A stretch of DNA of 42,136 nt from Candidatus Caenarcanales bacterium (GCA_947459525.1 CANHDW010000005.1:1-42136); one strand, 5' to 3'. Shown: positions 1 through 29,657, numbered from the stretch's first letter. Notes: generated by a model from the letters alone, not told the origin. A program made the numbers and translations.

Positions 1-1536
1 AAAAAGCTCACTGTGAGTCTGCGAGATTTGTACCTTATATTCTTCAGCTAAGGATTGATTATCTAAAAACTTTATTAATCTAGCTTCAGATTCTGTAAAC
101 TTACCGATCATAAATTCTGCTACAGCTAAAAGCCTTTCTGCGTCAGGAAATAATTTTAAGTCCAGTTTAGAAGCTACTTCATAAGCTGTTCTATATTCCT
201 GTAAATCTAAATATATTTTTACTTTTGTATGATTAAAGTAAAAGGCTGCGTATGAACTTGGTAAGCACTTTTCTAAACCATCATCACAAAGGCTAAGAAT
301 AGATTTTAATTCTTCATTAAACTCTTCTTCCTCTGAGCTTCTTTTTAGTAGTAGAATTCTTGCATCTATTTCTGGTAAAAGAATATGCGTGAAATATTTA
401 GAGATCTCTTTATCTTTAATGGTTCTCCAGAGATTTTGAATTTTGGGAATTAAAGATTTTAGATTACTAATGAGCTTTTCAGAAGTATATTTCTCAATTC
501 CTAGAGGCTCACTGAAAAAGATACATTCATGAAGTAGTTCTCTCAAACCTAATTTTTGTAAATTTTTAAGCTCATCAGATGATTGAAGAATAGCTTCTAA
601 TAATTCTTTTGCTTTATTATAATTTTTATTTTTGTAATAAAACACTGCTAAAGATGCTTTATAAATAGGTTTTACTTTAAATAAAGGGTCTATTTCTTGA
701 AGAAAAATCTCAAGATCCTTTTTTCTACTTAGGTTCATTATTTTCAAATTAATAGCTTGTTCATTTTCAGGGTCTATACTTAAAACTTCTTCTAATTCAT
801 CTAAGCCTTTTTCAGATTCATTTATGGTGAAATAAGCTTTAGCTTTATTTAAATGTTCTTCACTAGAGTCTTTCTCGCAGTGCGTGCTTACTTTTAAATA
901 GTGGTTTGATATTTCATCTTTGATAGAAGTGTCAGCAAAGGAAGAATATTTAGTTTCAAAAATTTTTGCCTTCAATAGGGAAATCTGATACTTAAACTCT
1001 TTTGATAATCTATCGAAATTATTATCAGTTTTTTTTAATAGATCTAGTGAAGAGTCTAGCTTTAGGTCATCATAGTAATCGTTTGCTAGGCTGATTATAG
1101 TCGATATATTAAAATATTTTTCCTGCTCATCATTGGTAAAATAACGATGAAAAATATCTAGATTTGTATCTAGTAACTCAAGTAAATTCTCCCAGCCATA
1201 AATCTGAGTATTAAGTTTTAAACATTCATCTTGTAAATTTTTATCTCTATCAGCAGTAGTGGCGAAGCATATTTCGTAATTTTCATGGGGAAAGCTTTTA
1301 AATTTTTCTATATCCTCTTTAACTTCTGTTAGAGTCAGCTTATCGCTACGTACTTTACACTGAATTACTTTTTTCGCTTGAGGAAAATAAAGATCTATTC
1401 CGTGCTGTGCCTGCCCTTTTCTGCCATATTTATCTCCAGATGAATCTTTAAAAACAGCTTTAAATAGATCTAAACAAAAAGTCTCAAAATCTGATTCATT
1501 TTTAAATTTAGGTAATTGATATTGAGAGGGTTTCAT
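1..1536 (-). CDS. Mrr-like PD-(D/E)XK nuclease fused to TPR-like repeats (C-terminus cut by window edge)
   Basis: An open frame runs from ATG (complement of 1534-1536) to the window edge without a stop, giving 512 codons of an incomplete protein. Residues about 10-85 look like a restriction-endonuclease fold of the Mrr type: a GRKGQAQHGIDL segment (Asp as metal ligand) followed by VIQCK (a Q-x-K variant of the E-x-K motif). The rest is helical with repeated units such as NKAKELLEAI and the A-Y-F patterns of TPR-like solenoids. Nucleases of this type are known from defence proteins that cut invading DNA; here that role is inferred from the motif and from the restriction-like neighbours. It is divergent from the ATPase at 1679. 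No Shine-Dalgarno precedes the ATG. I cannot see the C-terminus, so another domain may follow. Nuclease call fairly sure, biological role not. Confidence 0.75.
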   Translation of the reverse strand, partial: MKPSQYQLPKFKNESDFETFCLDLFKAVFKDSSGDKYGRKGQAQHGIDLYFPQAKKVIQCKVRSDKLTLTEVKEDIEKFKSFPHENYEICFATTADRDKNLQDECLKLNTQIYGWENLLELLDTNLDIFHRYFTNDEQEKYFNISTIISLANDYYDDLKLDSSLDLLKKTDNNFDRLSKEFKYQISLLKAKIFETKYSSFADTSIKDEISNHYLKVSTHCEKDSSEEHLNKAKAYFTINESEKGLDELEEVLSIDPENEQAINLKIMNLSRKKDLEIFLQEIDPLFKVKPIYKASLAVFYYKNKNYNKAKELLEAILQSSDELKNLQKLGLRELLHECIFFSEPLGIEKYTSEKLISNLKSLIPKIQNLWRTIKDKEISKYFTHILLPEIDARILLLKRSSEEEEFNEELKSILSLCDDGLEKCLPSSYAAFYFNHTKVKIYLDLQEYRTAYEVASKLDLKLFPDAERLLAVAEFMIGKFTESEARLIKFLDNQSLAEEYKVQISQTHSELF

Positions 1537-1623
1537 TAAAATCTGATTTAATTAAAATATCTATTAACTAATATTCTATCCCAAAATTTTCACTTGAATT
1601 ATTTACTTGGCTCCTGAGAGATA

Positions 1624-1653
1624 AAGTCTAAAATAACGGGTTATTTTAGACTT
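1624..1653. repeat. perfect 13-bp inverted repeat in divergent promoter region
   Basis: Arms 1624-1636 (AAGTCTAAAATAA) and 1641-1653 are perfect reverse complements around the loop CGGG. It lies between two divergent genes, so it is not a terminator of either. It ends 8 bases before the TATAAT of the 1679 gene, where an operator would lie. Confidence 0.75.
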
Positions 1654-1661
1654 ACCAAGGG

Positions 1662-1667
1662 TATAAT
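1662..1667 (+). promoter_or_regulatory. -10 box TATAAT of the AAA/DUF4143 gene
   Basis: A perfect TATAAT lies 11 bases before the ATG at 1679, predicting a start of transcription around 1674 and a leader of only about five bases. No Shine-Dalgarno sequence can fit. A good -35 box is not visible; its position is occupied by the inverted repeat. Confidence 0.55.
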
Positions 1668-1678
1668 TATGGGATAAT

Positions 1679-3016
1679 ATGTATCGTTTTGTCGAAGAGG
1701 ATTTAAAGCTTTGGAAAAAAAAGAAAAAGCCCTTACCTATACTTTTGCGTGGTGCTAGGCAGGTCGGTAAATCCTTTACAGTAAGGGAGTTTGCTAAAAA
1801 TAACTTTGATAATTTTTGTGAAATTAATTTTGAGAGAGATGAAAAGGCAAAATTATATTTCGAGAATTTAGATGTCAAGAACATAATTTTAAAACTCAGC
1901 TCTTTTACAAATACTAAAATCAGTAAAGGAAAGACGCTACTTTTTTTAGATGAGATACAGCAATGTCCCAAAGCCATTTTAGCTTTGAGATATTTTTATG
2001 AAGATATGCCAGGCTTGCATGTAATAGGGGCTGGCTCTTTAGTAGATTTTGCCTTGAAATCTGGTGAATATGCTGTACCAGTGGGCAGGGTGCAGTATTT
2101 TTTTATGGCACCCATGTCTTTTTCAGAGTTTTTATTAGCAGCGAATAAAAAGGCTTATCTCGATTATATTAATAATCTTTCTTTTGAGCAAAAAGATGAT
2201 TCTGTGATGCATGAAAGGCTTTTAGAAGAATTTCGCATGTATATGTTATTAGGTGGTATGCCAGCGGTGCTAGAGGATTATTTTACTAATCAAGATTTAC
2301 TAGAAGCTTTTAATAGACAGAGTTCTATACTTCTTTCTTATAAAGATGATTTTTCTAAATATTCTAAACACCATCAGTATAAGTATTTGCAGAGCGTTTT
2401 ATTAAAAACTCCTCGGCTGATTGGTTCGAAGCTTAAATATTCACAGATTGATTCTGATTATAAGTCTGCTGATATTAAGGAGGCTCTGATTTTATTGAGT
2501 AGAGCTAATTTGATTCATTTGGTTCCTAGAACTAGTGGGGCTGGTTTACCACTTGGAGCAGAAGCTTCAGATAAGCATTTTAAAGCGATTTTTTTAGATA
2601 TTGGGTTAATTCAAAAGCTACTCGGTCTTAATAATGAAATTATTAATGCTAGTGATTTTCACTCTATTGCCACTGGGGCTTTAACTGAGCAGTTTGTAGG
2701 TCAGGAGCTGCTGAGTTATATAAACCCTTACGATGAAAAAAAATTATATTTTTGGGAAAGGGAAGATAAATCTAATGCTGCTGAGATCGATTATTTACAT
2801 GTCTGTGACGGTAAAATTTATCCGATAGAAGTAAAAGCAGCGAAGGCTGGGCGTTTGAAGAGTTTACGTATATTTATGGAAACTTTTAAAAGTCCTTTTG
2901 GGCTTAGGATTTCACAAAGAGAGCTTTCATTTGAAGATGGTATACTCTCTGTGCCACTTTATGCTGTATCGAATTTAGATCGCTTGATTAGGGAAGCTAC
3001 CCGAAAAAAAGTCTAG
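1679..3016 (+). CDS. AAA_14 ATPase with C-terminal DUF4143 nuclease-like domain
   Basis: A 445-residue P-loop ATPase. Walker A is GARQVGKS (Lys31), Walker B is LLFLDEIQ (Asp91-Glu92), and a sensor-like HVIGAGS follows. The C-terminal half is the DUF4143 domain and carries AAEIDYL (Asp371) and IEVKAAK (Glu384, Lys386), the D-x(n)-E-x-K spacing of the PD-(D/E)XK nuclease fold. The family is widespread and of unknown cellular function; it is often patchily distributed, as expected for accessory genes. The gene is convergent with the methyltransferase, and the two stop codons share the palindrome CTAG at 3013-3016. It resembles the ATPase at 9856 in architecture but is clearly diverged from it. 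Family sure; function unknown. Confidence 0.88.
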   Translation: MYRFVEEDLKLWKKKKKPLPILLRGARQVGKSFTVREFAKNNFDNFCEINFERDEKAKLYFENLDVKNIILKLSSFTNTKISKGKTLLFLDEIQQCPKAILALRYFYEDMPGLHVIGAGSLVDFALKSGEYAVPVGRVQYFFMAPMSFSEFLLAANKKAYLDYINNLSFEQKDDSVMHERLLEEFRMYMLLGGMPAVLEDYFTNQDLLEAFNRQSSILLSYKDDFSKYSKHHQYKYLQSVLLKTPRLIGSKLKYSQIDSDYKSADIKEALILLSRANLIHLVPRTSGAGLPLGAEASDKHFKAIFLDIGLIQKLLGLNNEIINASDFHSIATGALTEQFVGQELLSYINPYDEKKLYFWEREDKSNAAEIDYLHVCDGKIYPIEVKAAKAGRLKSLRIFMETFKSPFGLRISQRELSFEDGILSVPLYAVSNLDRLIREATRKKV

Positions 3017-6000
3017 GAAGCCTGTTCAATAAGCTTGATTTCTTCAGAATTTAATTCATAGAGTTTATAAATTAACTTATCTATCTCTGACTCGATTTCG
3101 TGAATTTCTGATTGTAATTTTTTGTCTTCATGATAACCCTCTTTTTCTGTTCTCAATAAGATTTTATCGACTAGTGTTTCGATGTTTTTAATTGTGCTTT
3201 GATTTATTTTATTGATTAAAGGTATTGGAATGGCTTCGACAAAGACTTTGAAATATCTACAGCTTTTATCTCCTAGTCCAGATGCAATTAGCGGAAAGTA
3301 CCACTTATTAAGTCGGGAGTTAAGGACAGCTATTAAATATTTAATTTCATCGCCAAGAATCATGTAGACAGTGTTATTAAAATATAAATTTTCATTTAAG
3401 AAGACAAAAGACGGTTCTTTTGCAATATCACTCCAAATTATTTTTTCTTTTTCAAAATCATCATAATAACTGCATGCTCGCAAATTCCACCAATTCGCTC
3501 CTTGATCATCTCTAATAACAGCTTTTGTTTGGAATTTAAGCAGGTGATTATAAACAGCTGGAAAGAGTTTAGGAATATCAAGATCAAAACCAGTATTAAT
3601 AAGCCAATTATCCACCCAAGTATAAGAATATTTACTGATATTCTTTCCTTTCAGTAGGGGTCTTATAATTTCTATACTCTTAGGATCTGCTTTACATAAG
3701 CTTTCTTTGGTAGCAGTATCTATGATGAATGCTTCATTTAAGCCAGTTAATAAACCTCTTTGCATTCGTATATTCCAATTCCGAAGAGGTTTACCCAATT
3801 TTTCTATTTTCTGTTTCAGCTTATACTCTGCATCATTCCCAATAAACCATGCTTCAGCATTGGGTTTATTTAAAATTATCGAATTTTGATTAATAAAATC
3901 TATTAAGGGTAAATCTGACTTTTTATACTGAGTAGCATTAAGAGCAATAGAAGTGTTAGGTTTCTTTTGTAGAAAAAGTATATTAGTATCTACTGTCGCA
4001 GACTCGAATACAGCTGGTCCTAAATCAATTAATTTTAAAGGATTATATTTAATAAAGAAATTTCTGAGCTTATGACCATAATTAGCTCTCATCCATTTAT
4101 TACTAGTGATATAAGATAAATGACCATTGCTTTTCAGCATATTTACAGCATGTTCATAAAATAGACAATATAGATCACCGCTAGAATCATAAGTTTGATA
4201 AGAAGCTTTTTTATAAAGCTCCTGCAAAGGATTTTTCTTTAATTTCTGCAATTGCACATACGGCGGATTCCCAATCACTATATCAAAGCCATCTAAAGTA
4301 AACATAAAATGGGTATCAAAAAAACCGCAAACACTCTCAGAATCAAAGGGCTGATAGCTCTCTAGCTGCTGCTGCCTCTCTGAAATACCTGTACGATTAT
4401 TATTAAAAATATTTTTACCAAGTAACTTCTGGAATTCTCCCTGTAATTTTTTCTTTTCAGAAGGTTTACTAGTAAAATACTGCTCCTGAAGAGATTTTAA
4501 TGATTTTTCAAATCCTGCATTGTCAAAAAGACTAAGCTGAGAGTTCTCTTTAAGAGGAATTAAACTATTAGCACAGATAAATTTAAAATCTAAATTAGGT
4601 AAAGGTTCTATACCAGAATTATCAGCTGAGTTTTTTAATTCTATATCTACGACTAGGCTTAGCCATACTCTTAGCCTAGATATCTCTATAGCAGTGGGTT
4701 CTATATCTACACCATAGATATTTTCAGATATTATCCCTTTTTTAGTTTTATAGCTATCTAATCTGCCATCTAATCTAGCATAGGTACTGACTAAAATCTG
4801 TAAAATCCCCATCGGGAAGGCTCCAGAGCCGCAAGCTGGGTCGATGATTTTTAAATTATCTAAAGCCTCAATTAGACGAGCTTTATAAGGATTTAACTCA
4901 GCTCTATCATTCTTATAATCAAACTCATGTTCTTTTTTATCTAATAGTAAATTTAAAATCTTCTCTTTTCTGCTATCTTCTCCGAGTTTTTCAGCAAGAT
5001 AAAGTCTAAGACTCTCTCTGCACATATAGTCTACGATTTCACGAGGTGTATAGAAAGCACCTTTAGCTTTTCTAGCCTGCTCTCCCGTCTCATTAGACTG
5101 CTCAGCGAGAAGATTTTCGAAGATACGCCCTAACATCTCTGGATCTATAGCTACCTGCTGGAAATCACTACTACTCTCATCAGTAGTGAAATTATACTTA
5201 TCTAAAAAATCATAGAAAAAGTCTATAAAATAATCATCAGGAAAAGATACTTTTTTCTCCCTGTAGTAATCATGCTTTCTCGGCTCGAATAAGCCACCAT
5301 TTAAAAATGGGGTCTTACGGTCTAGATTATTTCTCTCATTCTGTGGGGTATTTAGTACATCGAAAAAAAGAATTTCTAATTTTTTATGATAAAACTCTGT
5401 AGCTGTAAGGCTTTTAGCCTCAAAGTAATTAAATTCTTCTGCGATGATATTTTTTTTTCTTAAAAACCAACAAAAAATAATTCGCCCTATTAATCTTGTA
5501 GTGAATTGTTTTGCGGTATATTCATCTAAAATCTTATTAGTGACTAAATGCTGTACCTCTCTAGTAAAGAGTTCTGCGATATTACGGTAAAACTCTTTAT
5601 TTAAAGGATGTATATCGAAGCTATCCCAGAGTATTTGATGTAAAGTCTTTTTATGAGTGTCTTCTGGGCTGTTATACCATTTTTCAAAGATTTGCTTCTG
5701 AGTATTAGTAAGAGCTTTATGTAATTCTAAAGTCCTGATTTTATAATTACTGCTAAGTGCGATAATAAGCCGATCAGCTTTATCTGGCACTATAAAATCT
5801 ATACCTAAGTTCTCATCAGCGTATAAAAGCTCATCATCTTCATAATTAGAGGTAACACGATGCACTAGATTAGAAATAGTTCTACGATTAGTTTTCTTAG
5901 CCCAGAAAAGTTTAAAATCTATATTACGCTGGTTTTTACTAGCTAATTGATAGTAGGCTTTTCTATCGCTGTATTTAGGTGCTTTATGCGTCCAAGTGTT

Positions 6001-6204
6001 ATTTACTGGTTTTTGTAAAACATCATTTGAGAAAAGTAATTCTGTTTTATTTATCTCTTCTGGTATTTTTAATAAGGCTACTAATCTTTCTGCGATTAAA
6101 TGACAGCTTTCAAAGCTTTTAATCTCAGCAGCCTCTTTCAGGCTAATATCTATACTCGCAAATATTTCTTGAATGCTGATATTGTTACTTGTTTTGCTTA
6201 GCAT
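3013..6204 (-). CDS. Eco57I/type IIG-like N6-adenine DNA methyltransferase
   Basis: A 1063-residue class I DNA methyltransferase. Motif I is DPACGSGAF (456-463, binds S-adenosylmethionine), followed by NIYGVDIEPTAIEISRLR, and the catalytic motif IV is IGNPPYVQL (Asn646-Pro-Pro-Tyr649) of the adenine-N6 class. The C-terminal third resembles a target-recognition domain (PLLKGKNISKY region) and ends in a helical segment. I cannot see a clear PD-(D/E)XK motif in the N-terminus, so cleavage activity is not supported in this chain. The start codon lies inside the end of the helicase gene (20-base overlap), so translation is probably coupled. Together the two genes look like a restriction-modification type module in which this protein marks self DNA and the helicase/PLD protein acts on unmodified DNA; the division of labour is inferred. 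Confidence 0.87.
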   Translation of the reverse strand: MLSKTSNNISIQEIFASIDISLKEAAEIKSFESCHLIAERLVALLKIPEEINKTELLFSNDVLQKPVNNTWTHKAPKYSDRKAYYQLASKNQRNIDFKLFWAKKTNRRTISNLVHRVTSNYEDDELLYADENLGIDFIVPDKADRLIIALSSNYKIRTLELHKALTNTQKQIFEKWYNSPEDTHKKTLHQILWDSFDIHPLNKEFYRNIAELFTREVQHLVTNKILDEYTAKQFTTRLIGRIIFCWFLRKKNIIAEEFNYFEAKSLTATEFYHKKLEILFFDVLNTPQNERNNLDRKTPFLNGGLFEPRKHDYYREKKVSFPDDYFIDFFYDFLDKYNFTTDESSSDFQQVAIDPEMLGRIFENLLAEQSNETGEQARKAKGAFYTPREIVDYMCRESLRLYLAEKLGEDSRKEKILNLLLDKKEHEFDYKNDRAELNPYKARLIEALDNLKIIDPACGSGAFPMGILQILVSTYARLDGRLDSYKTKKGIISENIYGVDIEPTAIEISRLRVWLSLVVDIELKNSADNSGIEPLPNLDFKFICANSLIPLKENSQLSLFDNAGFEKSLKSLQEQYFTSKPSEKKKLQGEFQKLLGKNIFNNNRTGISERQQQLESYQPFDSESVCGFFDTHFMFTLDGFDIVIGNPPYVQLQKLKKNPLQELYKKASYQTYDSSGDLYCLFYEHAVNMLKSNGHLSYITSNKWMRANYGHKLRNFFIKYNPLKLIDLGPAVFESATVDTNILFLQKKPNTSIALNATQYKKSDLPLIDFINQNSIILNKPNAEAWFIGNDAEYKLKQKIEKLGKPLRNWNIRMQRGLLTGLNEAFIIDTATKESLCKADPKSIEIIRPLLKGKNISKYSYTWVDNWLINTGFDLDIPKLFPAVYNHLLKFQTKAVIRDDQGANWWNLRACSYYDDFEKEKIIWSDIAKEPSFVFLNENLYFNNTVYMILGDEIKYLIAVLNSRLNKWYFPLIASGLGDKSCRYFKVFVEAIPIPLINKINQSTIKNIETLVDKILLRTEKEGYHEDKKLQSEIHEIESEIDKLIYKLYELNSEEIKLIEQAS

Positions 6205-9200
6205 AGAAAAGGATAGGAATTATTTTATCGGGTTGAATAGTCTCTCTTTTATCATAGCTTGATTCACGAGCTATTTTAAGCAGTTTATCTAGCTCATTAT
6301 AAAAAGCTTTATTATCTCGCTGTAATTTAAGAACCAGCCTTAATAAACTAGACAGCTCTTTTTTAATCAAATGATTAGTAGTTTTAAAAGCTTCTTTTAC
6401 TGTCTTTAAGTCTTCCTCACTATAATGCAGCCTAATCATTAATTTTAAAATCTCCTGCTCTTGACCTCTAAATGGCAGGCTCTCCGTCTCTGAGCTTAAG
6501 AGATAGTGTTTTCGCTCGCTGGCTATGTCCTTCAGCTCTTTTCGATTAAGGCTTATTTTATCTAAATCTCTCTCTGATTCTTCTTTAGTCGTCCTTAAAT
6601 AGTGCAGTGCCTCAAGATTATTCATTAATCCAATTTCTTCATAATTTCTATTCATCTTTAGAAAGCCTTTACTAATCAGCTTATCCTTGTGTAGCAGTTT
6701 ACTAAAAACTATTAGTTCTGCTGTTTTATTAATCTCCTTCTTAGGCATTAAGCCCCACTTACCATTAGCTATGCCATAAATAAGTTTTTTATACTCTTCA
6801 TCTTCCTCTTTATGAAAGCGTTTTAGATCTATAATAAATTCATCCTCAGCTAAAAGAAAGTCAGCAGCTTTTTCACTCTGTAGCATCGCCTCTATTCTTG
6901 CTTTCTCATCACTACTGTAAATGTTTTCTAGTGTCTCAGTGTATTCTACAGGATTCGCCACTTCACCTAATACAGACTGGTCATTGCCAATGGTTTGATT
7001 GATAATATTAATTTTACCTTCTAAGCGTTTTACTAATTTCAGGTAAGATTCTATGTTCTTCTCTGGGTGCATATTATAGATGAAAACCTCATCATATTTA
7101 GAGCCTAAGCGATTTATTCTACCGTTACGCTGAATCATCCTTACAGGGTTCCAGTGTAGATCATAGTTAATAATAATTCCCGCATCCTGTAAATTCTGCC
7201 CCTCTGAAAGAATGTCAGTAGAAAATAGATATTTTAATTCACTATCCTCATCTTTAAAGACATGATTTTTAGACTGGGGCGAGAATCGACTAGCGAGTGA
7301 CTCCGCTTCACTTCGATTACGAGAGGAGAGGAAAGCTATTTCAGCAGGCTTAATATTAGTGAGTTCCTCTTGATTTACTTTATTTTCCACTACTTCTCGA
7401 AGATATTCTATGGTATCTGCGAAATATGAAAAGATCAAAACCTTTTCAGAGCCTAGTTCTTGGAACTTTTTAATTAAGGCTGTGATTTTAGAATCATCTT
7501 TTTCTAAAATATCTAGGATTTTAGATATTACTCCTATTAATTCTAATTCCTTGTCTATATCCTCTTTTAAAGCATTGACCCTGTATCTATGAGGATCTAT
7601 ATTATCTAAGACACTTTCAGAAATTTCATAATCTTCATAAGTACTTTCATCACTGTTATTTAGAAGATCGAAATAGAGATCAGAATTTTTCAGTGAAACT
7701 ATATGATTATTATCAATTCCTTCTTTGAATATTAATAACTTTTCTTTATAGTGCTTGATAGAGTTTTTAATTGCTCTTATTGAAGATTCTAAACGCTTTA
7801 AAAACATGGTTCTAAATATTCCATAGATTCCCCTCTGTTGCTGCAATTCACGACTTTCATCACCATTGAGTTTCATTTCTTTGATTTGTGCTGGGGTTTT
7901 ACCATAGTATTTGGTTTGGTAAATTTTCCATCTGTATGGTACAAAGCCTAAAAGTAAAATCAATTGAAAAATAAAATGCGTAGGCGCTAAATCCTGTAAG
8001 CTTTCTAGACTTTTTTCTCGAATTAAAAGATCTAATTGATCTAAAGGGTGTTTTAAGAGTTCACATTTTTCTATAATTTCATCTGTATCTTTTCTATAAA
8101 TATCACTCAATGCTATTCTCTGACTCGTTATTTCAAGTATCTGCTTATTTAATTCTAGGGGTGTTTTATAAGCAAGATTTGCTGGTAAAGATTTAGGGAA
8201 ACCTTTTAATTCACCATTAATCATTAATTTCCCGTATTCTTTTTCAATTCCCTGCCTAGTTCTTCTTACGACCACTTCCCTGATTACTTTACTCATAACG
8301 CTTTTAATTTCTGAGTAGTCTATTTTTTCGGGTTCATCTTTATTAATGCACTTCTTTATTTTCTTCTGTAAGTCTTCAACTGCTGATACGAAATCTTTAG
8401 TAATGCTATTTCCAGTCTCACTATCTATAATATTTATATAAATAGAGCTGGTATCCCCTCGAGTCCCTAAAAGGATTTGGTTAGTAATATCCTGTAATTC
8501 ATTATTAATAGGAGTAGCTGTAAGTAAAAGTACATGTGCTTTTTTATTATTTCTAATCCATTCAAGTAATTTCTGATACCTCGCTCCATTAGTCTTTCTA
8601 AGATTATGAGACTCATCTATGACGAATAAAGAGACTTCGGCGATATTATCTAAACGCATCTCTGCTTCTATTTCATTTAAATTCTGAAGAGTAATAATGC
8701 TCTGTATTTGCAGACCTTGTTTAAGAGTTTCTTTGCCCCATTGTTCTTTTAAAGATTTCGGTGCGACTATTACTACTCTTTTACGTCCATCGGGGCTATT
8801 AATATATTCTTGAATAACACCTATCGCAGTGATGGTTTTACCTAAACCTACTGAGTCTGATAGCATAGTAGTTCGATGTTTTTTTAATTTTCTAAGAAGC
8901 TGCTGTATATTTTTTTTCTGAAACTCAAGAAGCTCATAAGCAGCATTTTTAGAATCTGAAATCGGCTCATCTTCTAGCTCTTCTTGATACAGTTCATAGA
9001 GTGTTTTAATATAAGTCTCATAGGGACTGAAAAGTACATCACCGACGGGAGACTGTTCTAGAAGCTCAGTGAAGCGTCCAGTCCAATTCTCTGTTTTTTC
9101 ATCTTCCCATAATTCATTAAACCAGAATAGATGACCTGTTTCCTGTGCTTGGTTTTTCGGTGCGTATAGCACTACTCGCTCATCTGCTTCTAGCGCGTTT

Positions 9201-9661
9201 AATTCTGTATTAGAGTTCAAGCCATTACCTGTAAAGTTAGATGAACCTATAATACCTATGGCTTTCGAGGATTCAAAATTACCGAATATATAAGATTTAG
9301 CATGTAGAAAAGACTGCCTATAAACTCTTACTTCTAAGATATCTTTTTCAATCAATTCTTTAATAGCCTTAATACTGCTTATGAGTTCTTTGTCGGGACT
9401 TAAGGCTTCAAGATCCTGAAAAATGTCTCTATCAGGGTAATCTGGCTCAGGTCTATTTAACTTATGCCTAGGAATCAATAACTCACGTCCTATTAAGAGT
9501 CGTATTTTTTTATAAGTTTTAAAACTATCTAAGAACTCTTTAATACCGTGTATATCCCAGTAGCCAGTCGCTATGGATATTTCATCATATTCACTTACTA
9601 ACTGCTTTAAAACATCAGCTAGAATTTTTCTTTTATTATCAATAATTTTAGGTAGGCTCAT
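6185..9661 (-). CDS. SNF2/DEAD-like helicase with N-terminal phospholipase-D-like nuclease domain
   Basis: A 1158-residue protein. Residues 1-200 form a PLD-like domain with one H-x-K motif (SFLHAKSYIFG, His120/Lys122) and the downstream GSSNFTG (139-145), the arrangement of PLD-type nucleases that dimerise to build an active site. The SNF2 motor follows: Walker A SVGLGKT (Lys275), DESH box (349-352), LLLTATPINN, and in the second lobe LSEGQNLQDAG and the motif VI QRNGRINRLGS (from Gln844). A large helical insert lies between the lobes. A Shine-Dalgarno GGTGGAG (within 9668-9675) precedes the ATG, unlike most genes here. PLD-helicase plus methyltransferase pairs recall DISARM and related restriction systems, but DrmA and DrmB are not seen in this window. 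Domain calls are sure, system type is not. Confidence 0.88.
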   Translation of the reverse strand: MSLPKIIDNKRKILADVLKQLVSEYDEISIATGYWDIHGIKEFLDSFKTYKKIRLLIGRELLIPRHKLNRPEPDYPDRDIFQDLEALSPDKELISSIKAIKELIEKDILEVRVYRQSFLHAKSYIFGNFESSKAIGIIGSSNFTGNGLNSNTELNALEADERVVLYAPKNQAQETGHLFWFNELWEDEKTENWTGRFTELLEQSPVGDVLFSPYETYIKTLYELYQEELEDEPISDSKNAAYELLEFQKKNIQQLLRKLKKHRTTMLSDSVGLGKTITAIGVIQEYINSPDGRKRVVIVAPKSLKEQWGKETLKQGLQIQSIITLQNLNEIEAEMRLDNIAEVSLFVIDESHNLRKTNGARYQKLLEWIRNNKKAHVLLLTATPINNELQDITNQILLGTRGDTSSIYINIIDSETGNSITKDFVSAVEDLQKKIKKCINKDEPEKIDYSEIKSVMSKVIREVVVRRTRQGIEKEYGKLMINGELKGFPKSLPANLAYKTPLELNKQILEITSQRIALSDIYRKDTDEIIEKCELLKHPLDQLDLLIREKSLESLQDLAPTHFIFQLILLLGFVPYRWKIYQTKYYGKTPAQIKEMKLNGDESRELQQQRGIYGIFRTMFLKRLESSIRAIKNSIKHYKEKLLIFKEGIDNNHIVSLKNSDLYFDLLNNSDESTYEDYEISESVLDNIDPHRYRVNALKEDIDKELELIGVISKILDILEKDDSKITALIKKFQELGSEKVLIFSYFADTIEYLREVVENKVNQEELTNIKPAEIAFLSSRNRSEAESLASRFSPQSKNHVFKDEDSELKYLFSTDILSEGQNLQDAGIIINYDLHWNPVRMIQRNGRINRLGSKYDEVFIYNMHPEKNIESYLKLVKRLEGKINIINQTIGNDQSVLGEVANPVEYTETLENIYSSDEKARIEAMLQSEKAADFLLAEDEFIIDLKRFHKEEDEEYKKLIYGIANGKWGLMPKKEINKTAELIVFSKLLHKDKLISKGFLKMNRNYEEIGLMNNLEALHYLRTTKEESERDLDKISLNRKELKDIASERKHYLLSSETESLPFRGQEQEILKLMIRLHYSEEDLKTVKEAFKTTNHLIKKELSSLLRLVLKLQRDNKAFYNELDKLLKIARESSYDKRETIQPDKIIPILFYAKQNK

Positions 9662-9710
9662 AAATTAGCTCCACCAAAAATCATAATCTAAATTAGACTG
9701 AGAGGATTTT

Positions 9711-9716
9711 AATATA
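9711..9716 (-). promoter_or_regulatory. possible -10 box of the helicase-methyltransferase operon
   Basis: On the minus strand the hexamer TATATT lies about 50 bases before the helicase start and would give a leader that carries the GGTGGAG ribosome site. No clear -35 box is seen. Confidence 0.35.
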
Positions 9717-9780
9717 GTGTTTTACGCTGTAGAAATTTAGAAATCTTAATAATGCTATTACTTCTATATTTCATCTCCGA

Positions 9781-9823
9781 ATTTTTACTAAATTTCAAGT
9801 TTGACTTGAGATTTAGTAAAAAT
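9781..9823. repeat. 20-bp inverted repeat (one mismatch) in divergent promoter region
   Basis: Arms 9781-9800 and 9804-9823 pair over 20 positions with one mismatch (9794/9810) around the loop TTG. It lies between the divergent helicase and second ATPase genes, just upstream of the extended -10 box of the latter. Position and form repeat what is seen before the first ATPase (1624-1653), but the sequences differ. Operator or structured site; not a terminator by position. Confidence 0.75.
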
Positions 9824-9827
9824 AATG

Positions 9828-9836
9828 TGGCATAAT
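9828..9836 (+). promoter_or_regulatory. extended -10 box TGGCATAAT of second ATPase gene
   Basis: TGG followed by CATAAT fits an extended -10 element, which can work without a -35 box. It lies 19 bases before the ATG at 9856. No Shine-Dalgarno is present. Confidence 0.5.
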
Positions 9837-9855
9837 TTAAATATTCAGATGATTT

Positions 9856-11064
9856 ATGCTAAAACGCAGCATTAGTAAAAGTATTTTAAAACTAGCTAAG
9901 AAGTATCCAGTACTTACGCTAACTGGTCCTAGGCAGTCTGGTAAGACTACTTTACTTAGAAATTTATTTCCAGATTATACTTACGTAAATTTAGAAAATC
10001 TTAGAGAATTAAATTTCGCAAATAAAGATCCAGAAGGCTTCTTAGCGAGATATTTCGATGGAGTGATTATTGATGAAATTCAAAACGCTCCTCATTTAAC
10101 ATCATATATTCAAGTCATAGTCGATGAGAGAAAAAAAGATGCGATGTTTATACTTACTGGCAGCCAGAATTTTTCTTTAATAGAGTCAGTGAATCAATCT
10201 TTAGCTGGTAGGACAGCTATTTTTGAGCTATTACCTTTTAGTTATGAGGAAATAAAAGATTCTAAATATCATAAAGAATTTAAAGCTAAGACTAGTAAAA
10301 AGCAAATAGCCTCTGTAAATGAGAAATTAAATATTGATAAGCTGATGTTTAAAGGCTTTTATCCGAGAATCTACGATAAAAATATCCCAGCTTCTGATTT
10401 TTATGCAGACTATATAAAGACTTATGTAGAAAGGGATTTAAGACAGCTTAAAGCTATTCATAATCTTAGTAGTTTTAAAAAATTTCTAGGACTCTGTGCA
10501 GCTAGAATAGGACAGCCTTTAAATTTAACTAATATCTCTTCTGATTTAGGAGTATCATCTACGACTTTAAAAGAGTGGTTGAGTGTCTTAGAGGCGAGCT
10601 ACATTATTTATCTCTTGCAGCCTTTTAGTTTGAATATTAATAAACAACTCACTAAATCACCGAAGCTTTATTTTATTGATACGGGTTTACTGATTTATCT
10701 TTTAAATATTAATAGACCAGAAGATTTATTCATGCACAGTTTAAGGGGTAATATTTTTGAGAATTTGATAGTTATAGAAATTTTAAAAAGGAATCTGAAT
10801 CAGCATTTGAGACCAAATATTTTTTTCTATAAAGATCGCCAACATGAAGTAGATCTGATTTATAAAACGAAAAAAGAGGGCTATGCTGCTCTGGAAATTA
10901 AGTCAGCGAGTACCTACATTAGTGAGTTTCAGCATAGTCTTCAGTATCTAAAAAAGATTTTAGGCGAGGAACTCACTAGAGAAGAGCTGATCTATACTGG
11001 TACAGAGACTTATCAGTTAAAGGAATTAAGGATTAATAATATAGAGAGCCTAGAAATTGTCTAA
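9856..11064 (+). CDS. AAA_14 ATPase with C-terminal DUF4143 domain (second, diverged)
   Basis: A 402-residue ATPase of the same architecture as the 1679 gene. Walker A is GPRQSGKT (Lys30), Walker B VIIDEIQ (Asp73-Glu74), then the sensor FILTGSQNF. A helix-turn-helix-like linker (ISSDLGVSSTTLKEWLSVLE) separates the ATPase from the DUF4143 domain, whose HEVDLIY (Asp333) and LEIKSAS (Glu347, Lys349) motifs fit a PD-(D/E)XK fold. Function of the family is unknown. The two ATPases bracket the methyltransferase-helicase operon, both transcribed on the opposite strand to it. They may be part of the same island or simply accessory genes that collect there. Confidence 0.88.
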   Translation: MLKRSISKSILKLAKKYPVLTLTGPRQSGKTTLLRNLFPDYTYVNLENLRELNFANKDPEGFLARYFDGVIIDEIQNAPHLTSYIQVIVDERKKDAMFILTGSQNFSLIESVNQSLAGRTAIFELLPFSYEEIKDSKYHKEFKAKTSKKQIASVNEKLNIDKLMFKGFYPRIYDKNIPASDFYADYIKTYVERDLRQLKAIHNLSSFKKFLGLCAARIGQPLNLTNISSDLGVSSTTLKEWLSVLEASYIIYLLQPFSLNINKQLTKSPKLYFIDTGLLIYLLNINRPEDLFMHSLRGNIFENLIVIEILKRNLNQHLRPNIFFYKDRQHEVDLIYKTKKEGYAALEIKSASTYISEFQHSLQYLKKILGEELTREELIYTGTETYQLKELRINNIESLEIV

Positions 11065-11159
11065 ATAAATGCAAGAAAATCATGTGTTTTATAGTTCTGA
11101 CGAAGCACCACTTATAATAAATTTGACTAAAATGTGAATTTTACTATTTTACTGTAATA

Positions 11160-11165
11160 TATAAT
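11160..11165 (+). promoter_or_regulatory. -10 box TATAAT of murC
   Basis: A perfect TATAAT lies 10 bases before the first ATG of murC, predicting a start of transcription only a few bases upstream of it. No Shine-Dalgarno is seen before either this ATG or the in-frame ATG at 11194, which favours the 11176 start on a nearly leaderless mRNA. Confidence 0.5.
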
Positions 11166-11175
11166 AACCACTTCC

Positions 11176-12690
11176 ATGAATTTCACTAAAACCATGAACC
11201 TAACAGACTTTAAACACATTCGCTTTCTAGGAGCCGAAGGCATAGGCATGCGAGCTTTAATCGCTATTCTTGAAGATAAAATTTCACAAGGTGAATTAAA
11301 CTCTGATTTTAAAATTTCCAAAAGCGATCTTTCTTATAAAACTAATGATCCTTTAGATGAAAGCATAGACCTAGTAGTTCGCAGTACCGCAGTGAGAGCA
11401 GATGACCCCGATATGCTGTTTATGCAGAAGCATAATATTCGAGTGATACACCGCTCTGAAATGTTAAACCTGCTCAGCGAGAACGCTAAACAGATAGTTA
11501 TTTCAGGCACTCATGGTAAAACTAGTACCTCAGCTCTGACCACGCACCTTCTAACTAAATTAGGCTTAGAGCTAGGCTTTGCAGTAGGTGGCGTACTAAA
11601 AGATTATAAAGCTAATGGTAAAGCTGCTCCTAAAAGCTCTTCTTTGAATGATGGTCCATCAGGCTATTTCGTGATGGAGGGTGATGAATCTGATAAAAGC
11701 TTTATGCGAACCACACCATATATAGCGGTGGTGACTGACGTAGAGGCTGATCATTTAGAGAACTATCCTGGTGGGCTAGCTGAGATACAGGCTTGTTTTA
11801 AGGATTTTTTAGATAGGGCTGAATATAAAATAGTCTGCATTAATAATCCTTTTTTAAAGGCTTATGCAGAAAATATTCTAAAAGAAAGACCAGATTTAAA
11901 AGGAAAAATCTTTAGTTATAGCAGCACCGATGAATCAGCTGATTTATTTATTAATCTAGAAAACAGTTCGCTACATTTTCAGTCTTTAGATGCTGGTCAT
12001 TTAGATTTAGCTATCTCCGGAAAATTTAATTTATTAAACGCCTGCGCAAGCCTTCTAGCAGCGCATGTTTTAGGTTTTAAAATTATAGAAGCTAAATCTC
12101 TATTTAAAGATTTCCATGGTACGCAGCGCCGCATGGAGCTTATAAACTCAGATTACAGATCAGTAGGCGATAACAACGTAGAGCATGGAGTTTGTGAGCA
12201 GTCTTTTAAAATAGAAATTTATGATGATTATGCTCATCACCCAAGTGAAATTAAGGCTTTGCTTGATTCTGTAAAAGCCATGCTGAAAACGAGTACTGAT
12301 AAGGCTCTCTTTATATATCAGCCACATCATCCTGAAAGAACACAGCAGTTTTGGGCTGATTTCGTAAAAGTCTTTAAGGAATTTCCAGAAAATATAGATG
12401 TACTACTTTTAGATATTTATGTAGCTCGTAGTCAGCATATAGAGGGCGTTAATAGTAAAAAGATGGCTGAAGAAATAGCTTTAAATAATGTTAAATACCT
12501 AGACCCTAATGGAAATCTCTCCGCAAGCGAAGCTAAAGAAGCTGATGTGCAAGGGAATTTTAAAGATATAGCGATGACTTTGAAACCACTTATTGATAAA
12601 CGTATTCAGGGGCGGGAGTATAAAAAAATATTTTTTGTAGGGGCGGGAAATATTTCTAAAATTGCGGAGAAGTATAGGGTTAGTACATAA
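11176..12690 (+). CDS. murC: UDP-N-acetylmuramate-L-alanine ligase
   Basis: A 504-residue Mur ligase that uses ATP to add L-alanine to UDP-N-acetylmuramate in the cytoplasm, the first amino acid of the peptidoglycan stem. The N-terminal Rossmann-like part has FLGAEGIGMRAL, the ATP loop is GTHGKTSTS (111-119), then MEGDESDKSF and VEADHLENYPGG, and the C-terminal domain has YDDYAHHPSEIKA, typical of MurC and of its recycling relative Mpl. Length is slightly above the usual MurC. The VEADHL stretch favours MurC, but Mpl is the main alternative. No other cell-wall gene is next to it; it is followed by tmRNA on the same strand. Confidence 0.85.
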   Translation: MNFTKTMNLTDFKHIRFLGAEGIGMRALIAILEDKISQGELNSDFKISKSDLSYKTNDPLDESIDLVVRSTAVRADDPDMLFMQKHNIRVIHRSEMLNLLSENAKQIVISGTHGKTSTSALTTHLLTKLGLELGFAVGGVLKDYKANGKAAPKSSSLNDGPSGYFVMEGDESDKSFMRTTPYIAVVTDVEADHLENYPGGLAEIQACFKDFLDRAEYKIVCINNPFLKAYAENILKERPDLKGKIFSYSSTDESADLFINLENSSLHFQSLDAGHLDLAISGKFNLLNACASLLAAHVLGFKIIEAKSLFKDFHGTQRRMELINSDYRSVGDNNVEHGVCEQSFKIEIYDDYAHHPSEIKALLDSVKAMLKTSTDKALFIYQPHHPERTQQFWADFVKVFKEFPENIDVLLLDIYVARSQHIEGVNSKKMAEEIALNNVKYLDPNGNLSASEAKEADVQGNFKDIAMTLKPLIDKRIQGREYKKIFFVGAGNISKIAEKYRVST

Positions 12691-12799
12691 ATTACATCTG
12701 CCATAATTCTGACGCACTAAAATGTGGAATGATAGAATTACTAATCCAGTAAACTGAAAACTAGAATTCTCGTGAAATCACTAAAATATTCTCATTTTT

Positions 12800-12816
12800 C
12801 TTGTGCCTCGCACAAG
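12800..12816. repeat. 7-bp inverted repeat just before tmRNA
   Basis: CTTGTGC (12800-12806) and GCACAAG (12810-12816) pair perfectly around CTC, ending 8 bases before the tmRNA 5' end. It could be part of the precursor leader removed by RNase P, or an operator. There is no T-run, so it is a poor murC terminator. Confidence 0.5.
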
Positions 12817-12824
12817 ACCATTAT

Positions 12825-13243
12825 GGGGGCGTATTAGCTTTGACGGAGAAACAGAATTTTGAAGTGCAGGTCAAGGATGCAGAGGACCTTGTCAAAACCA
12901 ATGCAAAAAATAAGTGCTAACGAATTCGAAGTAACTGTTTGTGAGACGACTAAGTCTCACAACACCGTAGCTGTTCGAGCTGCGTAATAACCCGACAAAC
13001 TGTGGTTAACTTCCCTACTCAGGTATTGGCTTACCGAGTTATCTGAGTGGGGCACAAGACTTGGTAAGTGCATCTTTCTGAATTTTATTGAATTTGGCAG
13101 GAAGATAAAGATTAAGTTCAAGAACCCGTTGAGTGTCTGTGATCACAGGAACGGCATAAACCTAGACTCATAGACTAAACTTGTAGTATCTTCATCAGGA
13201 CGGATTTTCGGACGAGGGGGGCAGTTCCCCTCCGCCTCCACCA
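12825..13243 (+). ncRNA. ssrA: transfer-messenger RNA (one-piece)
   Basis: A 419-base one-piece tmRNA that rescues stalled ribosomes and tags their products for proteolysis. The 5' end GGGGGCG pairs with CGCCTCC before an encoded ACCA 3' end, and the third pair is G-U, the identity mark read by alanyl-tRNA synthetase. The 5' TAGCTTTGACGG and 3' GTTCAAGAACCC T-arm region match tmRNA consensus. A tag frame with tandem stop codons follows (12916-12990). The T-run right after ACCA (13244-13248) may end transcription. This is not a permuted two-piece form, unlike alphaproteobacterial and some cyanobacterial tmRNAs. Confidence 0.95.
12916..12987 (+). other. tmRNA tag reading frame (23 codons plus stop)
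   Basis: The resume codon is most likely GCT at 12916, preceded by ATAAGT and followed by AAC GAA, as in the usual Ala-Asn-acidic start of tags. The frame ends ...NTVAVRAA before TAA TAA. The tag is long, contains one Cys, and ends Arg-Ala-Ala instead of the more usual Leu-Ala-Ala or Val-Ala-Ala. A perfect 7-bp hairpin (12941-12947 with 12954-12960) lies inside the coding stretch. The resume codon is inferred. Confidence 0.75.
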
Positions 13244-13269
13244 TTTTTATAAGCTTCCCAGAAACCCAC

Positions 13270-13275
13270 TATAAT
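13270..13275 (+). promoter_or_regulatory. -10 box TATAAT of the methyltransferase gene
   Basis: TATAAT lies 14 bases before the ATG at 13290, predicting a leader of about eight bases and leaving no room for a Shine-Dalgarno sequence. Confidence 0.45.
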
Positions 13276-13289
13276 ACTACAATCCTCTT

Positions 13290-14615
13290 ATGAGCAAAGT
13301 CGCTGAAAATAGCTATTTAATCGAAGACTGGACTGATTATGATAAGTCTTCACTGTATAATTTATCGACTAAATATTACTCGGAAAGAGCCTGCGACTCG
13401 TTTCTAAATCAAGCAGATACAATAGTCCTGCCGAACGTCGTTACTAGCACCTATGTTCACGCTCATATTTTAGCTAAATTCCTTGCAGCTAATCTAAGTC
13501 GAATCCCTGCTGATAAAAAATTACGTGTCCTTGAATTCGGCTCAGGCTCTGGCTTATTTGCGAGGCACTTTCTTTTAGCTGCTGCTGAAATGAATTACTT
13601 AGATAGATTAGAGTTTTTGGTAAGTGATATATCTGATCTCTTCTTAATTCAGATGAAGGAACGGGGCGTCTTTGAAGGATTTACAGAAGGAAAACATTAT
13701 CAGTTAGTTAATTTAAATCTTTTAGATCTAGATTCTGCTAAAACCGTTACTGGAGAACATATTGATCTGAATGATTTAGATTTAGTCGTCTCTAATTATG
13801 TTTTAAATGCACTGCCGATGATACCCATAAGGCATGCTTCTGAGGGTGGTTTTGAGAAGTTACAGGTTAAAATTACTGGTCCAGAACTACCAAAGGAAGT
13901 AGACTTAGTCAGTAATTTGAATTTCTTTTCCTCACTTAAGATCGAAGAGAGGTGGGTTAATTATGATATCGAATCAGTGAGCGATATTGAGAAAAAATAC
14001 TTCGAAATTTTCAAAAAACACCTAAATACTTTAGCACCTGCTATGGCTGGACGCTTTAGCTATAAGGCTTTAGAGGCGATGGATAAAATCCACTCTAAGC
14101 TTAGTGCATTCGGGATGTTCTATTTAGCTGATATTCCTTCATGGGGGACTAATGCCTTTAAATTTTACAGCTTCTACACGAATGCTTTAGCTAATTTAAT
14201 CAGTGAGAATCTAGTAATAGATTTCGCAAGCTCTTTAGGTATGGAGATTCTGAAACAGAAAGACCAAAACCTCTTCAGAATTCTTTTTTATAAAAGTGAA
14301 AATGCTTTCGAGCCTCTAAAAACCTCTTTTAATAAGGATTTAGTCTTTTCTAATAAAGTAAATCTATTTAAAAAGATTACTGATCTTCTAAAAAATATCG
14401 ACGACGTGGCTTTATTAGACGTGTATAAAACACTTCTAGACAAGCTTCTAGCTTTAGACAATAAATCTGTGACTAGTTTAGTTTTTCAAGGTGATTATTA
14501 TTACTTAGCTGGGGATTCTAAAACTGCTTTAGATTTTTACCAAAAAGCTCAAGCTATAGACTTCTGTAATCATCACCCAGATTTGGATAGTAAAATAAGA
14601 ATGATCTTTATTTAA
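13290..14615 (+). CDS. class I SAM-dependent methyltransferase with TPR-like C-terminus
   Basis: A 441-residue protein. The S-adenosylmethionine loop is LEFGSGSGLFARHF (Glu82, Gly84-x-Gly86-x-Gly88), then FLVSDISD with the acidic residue that binds the ribose, and DLVVSNYVLNALP in the place of motif IV. The layout is distantly like the MidA/NDUFAF7 group, but I do not recognise a substrate. Near the C-terminus the segment FQGDYYYLAGDSKTALDFYQKAQAI reads as a single TPR unit. The gene follows tmRNA on the same strand and is convergent with the gene at 14630; a short palindrome (14626-14638) lies between. Methyltransferase call is good, role unknown. Confidence 0.72.
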   Translation: MSKVAENSYLIEDWTDYDKSSLYNLSTKYYSERACDSFLNQADTIVLPNVVTSTYVHAHILAKFLAANLSRIPADKKLRVLEFGSGSGLFARHFLLAAAEMNYLDRLEFLVSDISDLFLIQMKERGVFEGFTEGKHYQLVNLNLLDLDSAKTVTGEHIDLNDLDLVVSNYVLNALPMIPIRHASEGGFEKLQVKITGPELPKEVDLVSNLNFFSSLKIEERWVNYDIESVSDIEKKYFEIFKKHLNTLAPAMAGRFSYKALEAMDKIHSKLSAFGMFYLADIPSWGTNAFKFYSFYTNALANLISENLVIDFASSLGMEILKQKDQNLFRILFYKSENAFEPLKTSFNKDLVFSNKVNLFKKITDLLKNIDDVALLDVYKTLLDKLLALDNKSVTSLVFQGDYYYLAGDSKTALDFYQKAQAIDFCNHHPDLDSKIRMIFI

Positions 14616-14629
14616 AATCTATAGCGTAA

Positions 14630-15256
14630 CTAAGTTACTAAAATCTTATTCTTAGCCTTCTTTAATTCATCTAACTTACCATTCAGCGAGCTAAGCTGCC
14701 CCATATCTAATTTACCAAGCTCACCTGGTGTATTAAATAAATCTGGATGAAATCCAGCAGCGACTAAAATTTCTTTTACTTCTTGTCGATAAAACTGGGC
14801 TGGATTGTCTAAAACCTGCTTCTGAGCAGCTTTTATCTGTCTTAATTTATCTTGATAAGCAGAGCTACGTCCCATAGTATCCTTCAGAGCACCATTAAGA
14901 TCATGTTCTGTTAATTTATTATCAGCTGCCATCGCAGTAGCGATACTACTTTCTATCTCGGGAGGTAAACTAATATTTCCAGATTGATCTTTATTCTCGC
15001 CCCAAATACTTTTCGCAATCTCTCCATAAGAAGCCGCGGAACAAGTCGATAAAACTCGATCATAATATTCAGCTATTTTAGCTTCCTTGCGAAGCTGCTC
15101 AGCTTCCTCTTCGCTATCAGCATATGCTGTATAGGCTGGAAACCTAACCTCTATCTTTTTCAGAAAATCTAAAAGCCCCTTTGCTTTAAACAAAGTAAAG
15201 AGATTCTTACTTGTTTTAGTTTGAGTTTTTTCTATAGCTGGCGAAATGATTTCCAT
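14630..15256 (-). CDS. unrecognised 208-residue helical protein
   Basis: I do not recognise this protein. It starts at the ATG at 15254-15256 (MEIISPAIEKTQ); an upstream in-frame TTG at 15268 is less likely. No signal peptide or membrane segment is seen. It is mostly charged and helical, with an acidic/basic stretch SEEEAEQLRKEAKIAEYYDR, a Gln/Lys-rich middle, a possible J-domain-like or short globular tail (EVKEILVAAGFHPDLFN) and a helical end. It is divergent from the giant gene at 15519 across 262 bases, so the two might share control, though nothing else links them. Confidence 0.6.
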   Translation of the reverse strand: MEIISPAIEKTQTKTSKNLFTLFKAKGLLDFLKKIEVRFPAYTAYADSEEEAEQLRKEAKIAEYYDRVLSTCSAASYGEIAKSIWGENKDQSGNISLPPEIESSIATAMAADNKLTEHDLNGALKDTMGRSSAYQDKLRQIKAAQKQVLDNPAQFYRQEVKEILVAAGFHPDLFNTPGELGKLDMGQLSSLNGKLDELKKAKNKILVT

Positions 15257-15356
15257 TGTTAATAACAAATATGCAGCAGTCTCTCAAAAGAAGAGGACTT
15301 GCAATATGTAAAGCGGATTAAAAGCCTTCTTTGATATTGAAATTAAAGATACTGCC

Positions 15357-29518: not shown

Positions 29519-29639
29519 GGGACTGCTCACAAGCGTGCAAGTTCAAGGCTGAGGAGGACGAATGACCGCAGTGTATCAAGCATACATGAGGATCATGAGG
29601 ACGACGAAAACGCAGAAATTTGAGTTTGCGAGCAGTCTC
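29519..29639. repeat. dispersed palindromic element, long copy (121 bp)
   Basis: The ends GGGACTGCTC and GAGCAGTCTC form imperfect terminal inverted repeats (13 of 16). Inside, 29542-29570 is identical over 29 bases, in opposite orientation, to 37252-37280. It lies between the Met-rich gene and mgtE and is GC-richer than its surroundings. Looks like a MITE or REP-type element; no target duplication is obvious. Confidence 0.75.
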
Positions 29640-29657
29640 TAGATTGAGCTTAGAAAG

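Follow-up and report, generated by a model that had tools for sequence, protein, structure and literature searches.

A predicted two-gene restriction-modification-type module beside lineage-expanded DUF4143 ATPases in a Candidatus Caenarcanales bacterium

The DNA analysed here, called the window throughout, is a 42,136-nucleotide contig of a Candidatus Caenarcanales bacterium (GCA_947459525.1 CANHDW010000005.1:1-42136; contig C5:1-42136 of genome G000, which comprises 1.02 Mb and is 54.5% complete). The closest named genome, Cyanobacteria bacterium REEB446, is assigned to Cyanobacteriota by NCBI, and the lineage is probably melainabacterial. The first 11 kb of the window carry five genes (Table 1). 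Two of them, a helicase with an N-terminal PLD nuclease domain and an N6-adenine DNA methyltransferase, lie head to tail between two AAA_14-DUF4143 ATPase genes of the opposite orientation, and a truncated Mrr-TPR gene occupies the contig start. A first-pass annotation had read these genes as a candidate undescribed defence island in which the ATPases and the Mrr-TPR gene could be regular partners of the helicase and methyltransferase. The gene coordinates and domains that it gave for all five genes were borne out, and so was its description of a coupled PLD-SNF2 helicase and adenine methyltransferase of the restriction type; the 20-bp overlap of the two genes suggests translational coupling. 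Among PADLOC profiles, the helicase matched C3a139 HKD+Snf2 (E 2e-47) and the methyltransferase matched REase_MTase_IIG (E 3e-210).

Table 1. Genes, motifs and palindromes in the first 11 kb of the window
Feature	Position	Strand	Basis or remark
PLD (HKD) nuclease + SNF2/RapA-like translocase, 1158 aa, predicted restriction subunit	6185..9661	-	PLDc_2, RE_NgoFVII, SNF2, Helicase_C
HKD active-site stretch H120-x-K122, S140-S141-N142, E153	9203..9304	-	invariant or 19/20 in 20 homologues
SNF2 motor Walker A, D269-x-VGLGK275	8837..8857	-	D and V-G-L-G-K invariant in alignments
SNF2 motor DESH box, residues 349-352	8606-8617	-	D-E-x-H invariant in alignments
N6-adenine DNA methyltransferase + TaqI-like recognition domain, 1063 aa, predicted modification/specificity subunit	3013..6204	-	Eco57I/N6_Mtase E 5e-39, TaqI_C E 1.5e-13
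Methyltransferase motif I DPACGSG, residues 455-461	4822..4842	-	conserved across homologues; deleted in REEB446
Methyltransferase NPPY, residues 646-649	4258-4269	-	conserved across homologues
TaqI_C target recognition domain, residues 849-994	3223..3660	-	counterpart within inverted cassette in relatives L071, L092, L095
Overlap of helicase end and methyltransferase start, 20 bp	6185..6204	-	similar overlaps in Lactococcus, L. plantarum
ATPase 2, AAA_14-DUF4143, bystander, PADLOC PDC-S01	9856..11064	+	Pfam + PADLOC; occurs without the pair in G001 (L111 9888-11096)
ATPase 1, AAA_14-DUF4143, bystander, PADLOC PDC-S01 (other subfamily)	1679..3016	+	47-53%-identity relatives mostly by housekeeping genes in G001, G002, G003
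Mrr-like nuclease + TPR gene, 512 aa, truncated at contig start	1..1536	-	weak LmuA match, E 2e-5
Palindrome, 20-bp arms, loop 3	9781..9823	+	32 bp upstream of ATPase 2; identical in G001
Palindrome, 14-bp perfect arms, loop 2	1624..1653	+	25 bp upstream of ATPase 1

Homologues of the pair were sought in plasmids and in 386 genomes of the phylum; the DNA around them was then searched with profiles, about 12–23 kb being examined per locus. Both genes were found together at 27 further loci, corresponding to 26 distinct ones (L073 and L108 are apparently the same plasmid), and at these 26 they were adjacent or nearly so. The hosts included Lactococcus, Lactiplantibacillus, Nostoc, Calothrix, Microcystis, Planktothrix, Deinococcus, Prevotella and further genomes of the same phylum and class, among them melainabacteria, and the pair was often plasmid-borne. 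The Firmicutes loci shared the helicase–methyltransferase order and the overlap seen in the window, whereas in many cyanobacteria the methyltransferase came first and other genes intervened between the two. Homologues from Lactococcus were 36% (helicase) and 41–42% (methyltransferase) identical to the window proteins. The only companions of the pair on an 11.8-kb plasmid of L. plantarum were replication, toxin–antitoxin, regulator, integrase and hypothetical genes. Four relatives of the methyltransferase (L099, L102, L103 and L106) had no such helicase within the stretch examined. The pair is conserved across phyla independently of the genes that flank it in the window, and the helicase and methyltransferase very probably form a self-contained two-gene module of the restriction-modification type, with the flanking genes independent of it.

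Conserved residues indicate how the work might be divided between the two proteins. Across 20 helicase homologues, the active-site residues H120, K122, N142 and E153 were conserved in all or all but one, and the Walker A, DESH and motif VI elements of the motor were likewise conserved. The spacing of the HKD residues is close to that of the BfiI active site. In the methyltransferase, motif I and NPPY were retained, but an alignment of 19 homologues showed columns with at least 90% conservation only from residue 205 onwards, with no N-terminal nuclease motif; narrower alignments contributed, besides these, just M1, L91 and positions from 195 onwards. Residues 1–195 of the methyltransferase hold no conserved nuclease motif, which sets the protein apart from classical type IIG enzymes and leaves the PLD domain as the pair's sole nuclease candidate. 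The nuclease is thus most likely the N-terminal BfiI-type PLD domain of the helicase, as judged from sequence conservation. AlphaFold predictions, with alignments drawn from the window and whole-genome loci only, gave a moderate model of the helicase (predicted local distance difference test score, pLDDT, of 58), whose best Foldseek matches covered only the SNF2/RapA motor, and a model of the methyltransferase (pLDDT 51) too poor for its fold to be judged.

From these features a working scheme can be proposed. The methyltransferase, through its TaqI-like recognition domain, would methylate adenine at a specific site in host DNA, thereby providing both specificity and self-marking. On unmethylated foreign DNA, the SNF2 motor of the partner protein would engage, possibly at the methyltransferase or with its aid, and would spend ATP to translocate along the DNA or remodel it. 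The BfiI-type PLD domain at its N-terminus, probably acting as a dimer, would then cut the unmarked DNA. An anti-phage effect of the pair may be inferred from this scheme. A comparable division of roles was proposed in 2018 for the Lactococcus pLd8 proteins (PMC6098607).

Some relatives carry additional recognition-domain cassettes. At L092, a second, oppositely oriented cassette is enclosed by inverted repeats of 308 bp and 91% identity (9614-9921 / 11044-11351); at L095, where the cassette adjoins a serine recombinase, the repeats are 313 bp long and 99% identical (10105-10417 / 11614-11926). A weaker inverted repeat (71%; 7794-8114 / 9259-9579) stands beside a serine recombinase in Lactococcus L071. 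These arrangements suggest that specificity is probably switched by cassette inversion in part of the family, and they are consistent with selection acting on the specificity of the methyltransferase. No inverted cassette of this kind was seen in the window. As a separate observation, all three genomes of the genus encode a second PLD-SNF2 helicase (G000:C18:16852-19659, L115 6853-10122; also L114 and L113); a DUF4391 gene follows it at L115, and no related methyltransferase was present within the stretch examined.

The flanking genes bear on the alternative that all five genes work as a single combined defence system, with the AAA/DUF4143 ATPases and the Mrr-TPR protein acting alongside the pair. 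The five genes do stand together in two genomes of the genus: REEB446, a near-identical genome and the sole match in the helicase search of genome contigs, has the same gene order at its island (L009). The nuclease-like signature noted earlier in DUF4143 is real, each residue of E-x-D...E-x-K being kept in 26–27 of 28 aligned ATPases; one Prevotella plasmid has a DUF4143 ATPase near the pair, and elsewhere in the genus restriction genes (a C5 methylase, an N6/N4 methylase and an Mrr_N-AAA_5/McrC pair) are found close to a few ATPases. Nevertheless, within the stretch examined, DUF4143 was missing from the other 25 of the 26 distinct pair loci and Mrr-TPR from all 26, so the neighbourhoods of the homologues did not show the co-occurrence that regular partners would have. 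The G001 stretch from 9775 to 15347 shows 93% identity with the window and carries ATPase 2 beside murC, with folD directly beyond ATPase 2 and no pair, ATPase 1 or Mrr-TPR, i.e., an empty site. In the three sequenced members of the genus, DUF4143 matches numbered 19 (the partial genome that contains the window), 32 (G001) and 42 (G002); other family members had 9–23 per genome, and half of 60 relatives had none. Identity between the two ATPases is only about 20%, and they belong to different parts of the family tree. In REEB446, moreover, the pair is disrupted (L009 3379-9045): the helicase lacks its first 282 codons, comprising the PLD domain and Walker A, through loss of 863 bp including the start, and the methyltransferase carries a frameshift and has lost motif I through a 132-bp deletion. 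These lesions possibly reflect decay or an assembly error. ATPase 2 is intact there and ATPase 1 nearly so, with one stop near its end. A combined system is accordingly extremely improbable; the two DUF4143 ATPases belong to a family expanded in this lineage and sit here as single genes unrelated to the pair, not as its partners, and Mrr-TPR is a separate accessory gene. A false five-gene system is thereby removed, and a compact restriction module gains a member.

A self-contained two-gene module has points against it. In many cyanobacteria and in Deinococcus other genes separate the pair, and more subunits may exist there; both genes are damaged in REEB446, so the module is not indispensable; and our literature search found no demonstrated activity for any homologue. 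By a rough estimate, two ATPases flanking the pair would be expected under uniform scatter with a chance of the order of 1 in 1000, a figure qualified by the clustering of ATPase genes, four of which lie on contig C32. The tolerance of a damaged copy in REEB446, together with inverted specificity cassettes in relatives like those of phase-variable regulators, could also point to a regulatory (epigenetic) orphan methyltransferase that is accompanied by a helicase and has no role in defence. Near-invariant PLD and motor residues would not be expected if only methylation were needed, and the frequent plasmid location argues in the same direction; we consider such a regulator very improbable. Another possibility is that the pair belongs, in degraded or minimal form, to the BREX-related Hma/BR type 2 or the DISARM class 1/ARMADA systems, with the missing core genes elsewhere in the genome. 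The helicase and methyltransferase are of the same kinds, type-2 BR has an N-terminal HKD-Swi2/Snf2 fusion (PMC12839542), and the helicase matches the NCBIfam DrmD model. The match, at 139.7 bits, is far below the cut-off of 610, however. DUF499 had no match in G000 (54.5% complete, as stated), G001 or G002, and in other pair-bearing genomes it lay on another contig or far from the pair; no further defence genes accompany the pair on the 11.8-kb L. plantarum plasmid. Such a derivation is therefore improbable. Of the readings considered, an independent helicase–methyltransferase module accounts best for the conserved pairing.

The flanking ATPases raise a question of their own. Both match PADLOC PDC-S01 strongly (E 2e-144 and 4e-99), and a PDB sequence search with ATPase 2 returned no relative. 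PDC-S01 (AAA_14-DUF4143) is reported to rank fourth among the commonest 'defence' genes of prokaryotes (PMC12988326). In this genus, the genes beside DUF4143 ATPases were mostly housekeeping genes (murC, folD, fusA, plsX, metH and others; names partly by sequence reading), and PADLOC gave a handful of hits for the 84 genes that neighbour 57 ATPases and likewise for 78 randomly drawn genes; the output was pooled, and no formal difference is claimed. Because PDC-S01 is high-copy in this lineage and mostly placed by housekeeping genes, caution is warranted in counting every copy as defence.

A palindrome precedes each of the two ATPases in the window. In the genus loci and a few family relatives, a stem score of at least 9 within 80 bp upstream was found for 20 of 61 ATPase genes against 18 of 458 other genes. 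Per genome, with other genes having an upstream gap of at least 60 bp as the comparison set, the counts were 7/19 versus 5/78, 6/23 versus 7/154 and 7/16 versus 4/32 (one-sided Fisher P 0.0017, 0.0024 and 0.021); these P values are descriptive only, because the score and span were picked after the first two palindromes had been seen, the span moving from 120 to 80 bp between counts, those two palindromes are included and several thresholds were tried. Gene starts were taken as the first possible codon. Palindromes also occur within about 45 bp upstream of DUF4143 starts at L148, L174, L180, L189, L192, L203, L208 and L209. They are gene-specific, differing in sequence between ATPase genes, and in the orthologues L174 and L189 the changes preserve the complementarity of both arms. 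Outside the genus they are present but less frequent, and the trait changes about 20 times on the ATPase tree. The simplest reading is that the palindrome is a putative autoregulatory site for the DNA-binding part of the ATPase itself. A wider reading, which we regard as tentative and rather doubtful, is that PDC-S01 genes here are not ordinary defence-island genes but single-gene, self-regulating or self-targeting AAA-nuclease elements, many recognising a private upstream palindrome. The enrichment of a gene-specific palindrome at PDC-S01 starts makes the function of these genes testable.

Repeats of another kind were observed in the same genomes. A dispersed repeat with the core GAAGTTTGCGAGCAGTC is present in about 12, 25 and 30 copies in the three genus genomes and was not found in four family relatives. 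It occurs in the window at about 12165-12210, inside murC, and at about 29590-29645, and also at L111 (15390 and 18542-18558), L156, L159 (7298-8947) and L161 (6928-8310). A stretch related to it runs in frame within murC, a dehydroquinase-like gene and other genes, and the DUF4143 proteins of L159 and L161 contain in-frame repeats with similar peptides, reminiscent of Rickettsia palindromic elements.

As for the rest of the window, the N-terminal Mrr-like part of the Mrr-TPR protein gave no Pfam Mrr match. Its full-length relative in REEB446 has 686 residues (L009, 10522-12582) and is directly followed by a HEPN-domain gene (L009 12584-12856); the window contig ends before the corresponding part. 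Beyond 11 kb, the genes scanned were chromosomal housekeeping genes (murC, a Na/H antiporter, a HisRS-type synthetase, MgtE, chorismate synthase) or unassigned, and a 1786-residue open frame at 15519-20879 had no Pfam match.

Neither the pair nor the ATPases are undescribed, as had been supposed. Both flanking proteins have the AAA_14 + DUF4143 architecture catalogued by PADLOC as PDC-S01. A pair of the same two-gene kind has been described on the Lactococcus plasmid pLd8, where orf33 encodes a PLD-SNF2 helicase and orf34 a 'type IIG' adenine methyltransferase that has no restriction domain, and where PLD was already put forward as the nuclease (PMC6098607, 2018). The window has the corresponding features, namely an adjacent PLD-SNF2 helicase and Eco57I/TaqI_C methyltransferase, with nuclease residues in the PLD domain and none in the methyltransferase; our sequence comparison used other Lactococcus homologues, not pLd8 itself. 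The pair is thus a new member of this previously described kind, in a relative of REEB446. Some Lactococcus loci differ from the window in having a recombinase and an inverted recognition-domain cassette. No system name for this widespread PLD-SNF2/methyltransferase module was found in the literature.

Other systems share parts of this design. Classical type IIG enzymes resemble the window methyltransferase in its Eco57I-type catalytic and TaqI_C recognition domains, but they join a PD-D/ExK nuclease and a methyltransferase in one chain; this assignment was rejected on the alignment of 19 homologues, and cutting is assigned here to a separate, ATP-driven protein. DISARM class 1 (DrmD + DrmMI) and ARMADA, which consists of ArmA and ArmB with a YprA-like ArmC (PMC12458937), likewise pair a RapA/SNF2-type helicase with a PglX-like methyltransferase. 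Both systems require a YprA-family helicase, and DISARM requires DrmB as well; neither a YprA-like DrmA/ArmC nor DrmB was found at the locus, and the nuclease here is fused to the helicase N-terminus. DISARM membership was rejected on the low DrmD score and on DrmA and DrmB, neither of which was found among the island genes or the further window genes scanned with Pfam, in agreement with the first-pass annotation; ARMADA was rejected as no further helicase gene, YprA-like or other, lies beside the pair. A further likeness is to type-2 BR, in which an N-terminal HKD nuclease is fused to a Swi2/Snf2 helicase and accompanied by an N6-methyltransferase (PMC12839542), as in the window. That system is defined by a DUF499 ATPase, which the locus lacks, and DUF3780 was not seen in the genes scanned; membership in Hma/BR was rejected on the DUF499 result. 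The window pair would thus work like the effector and methyltransferase half of type-2 BR, while not being a member by its defining ATPase.

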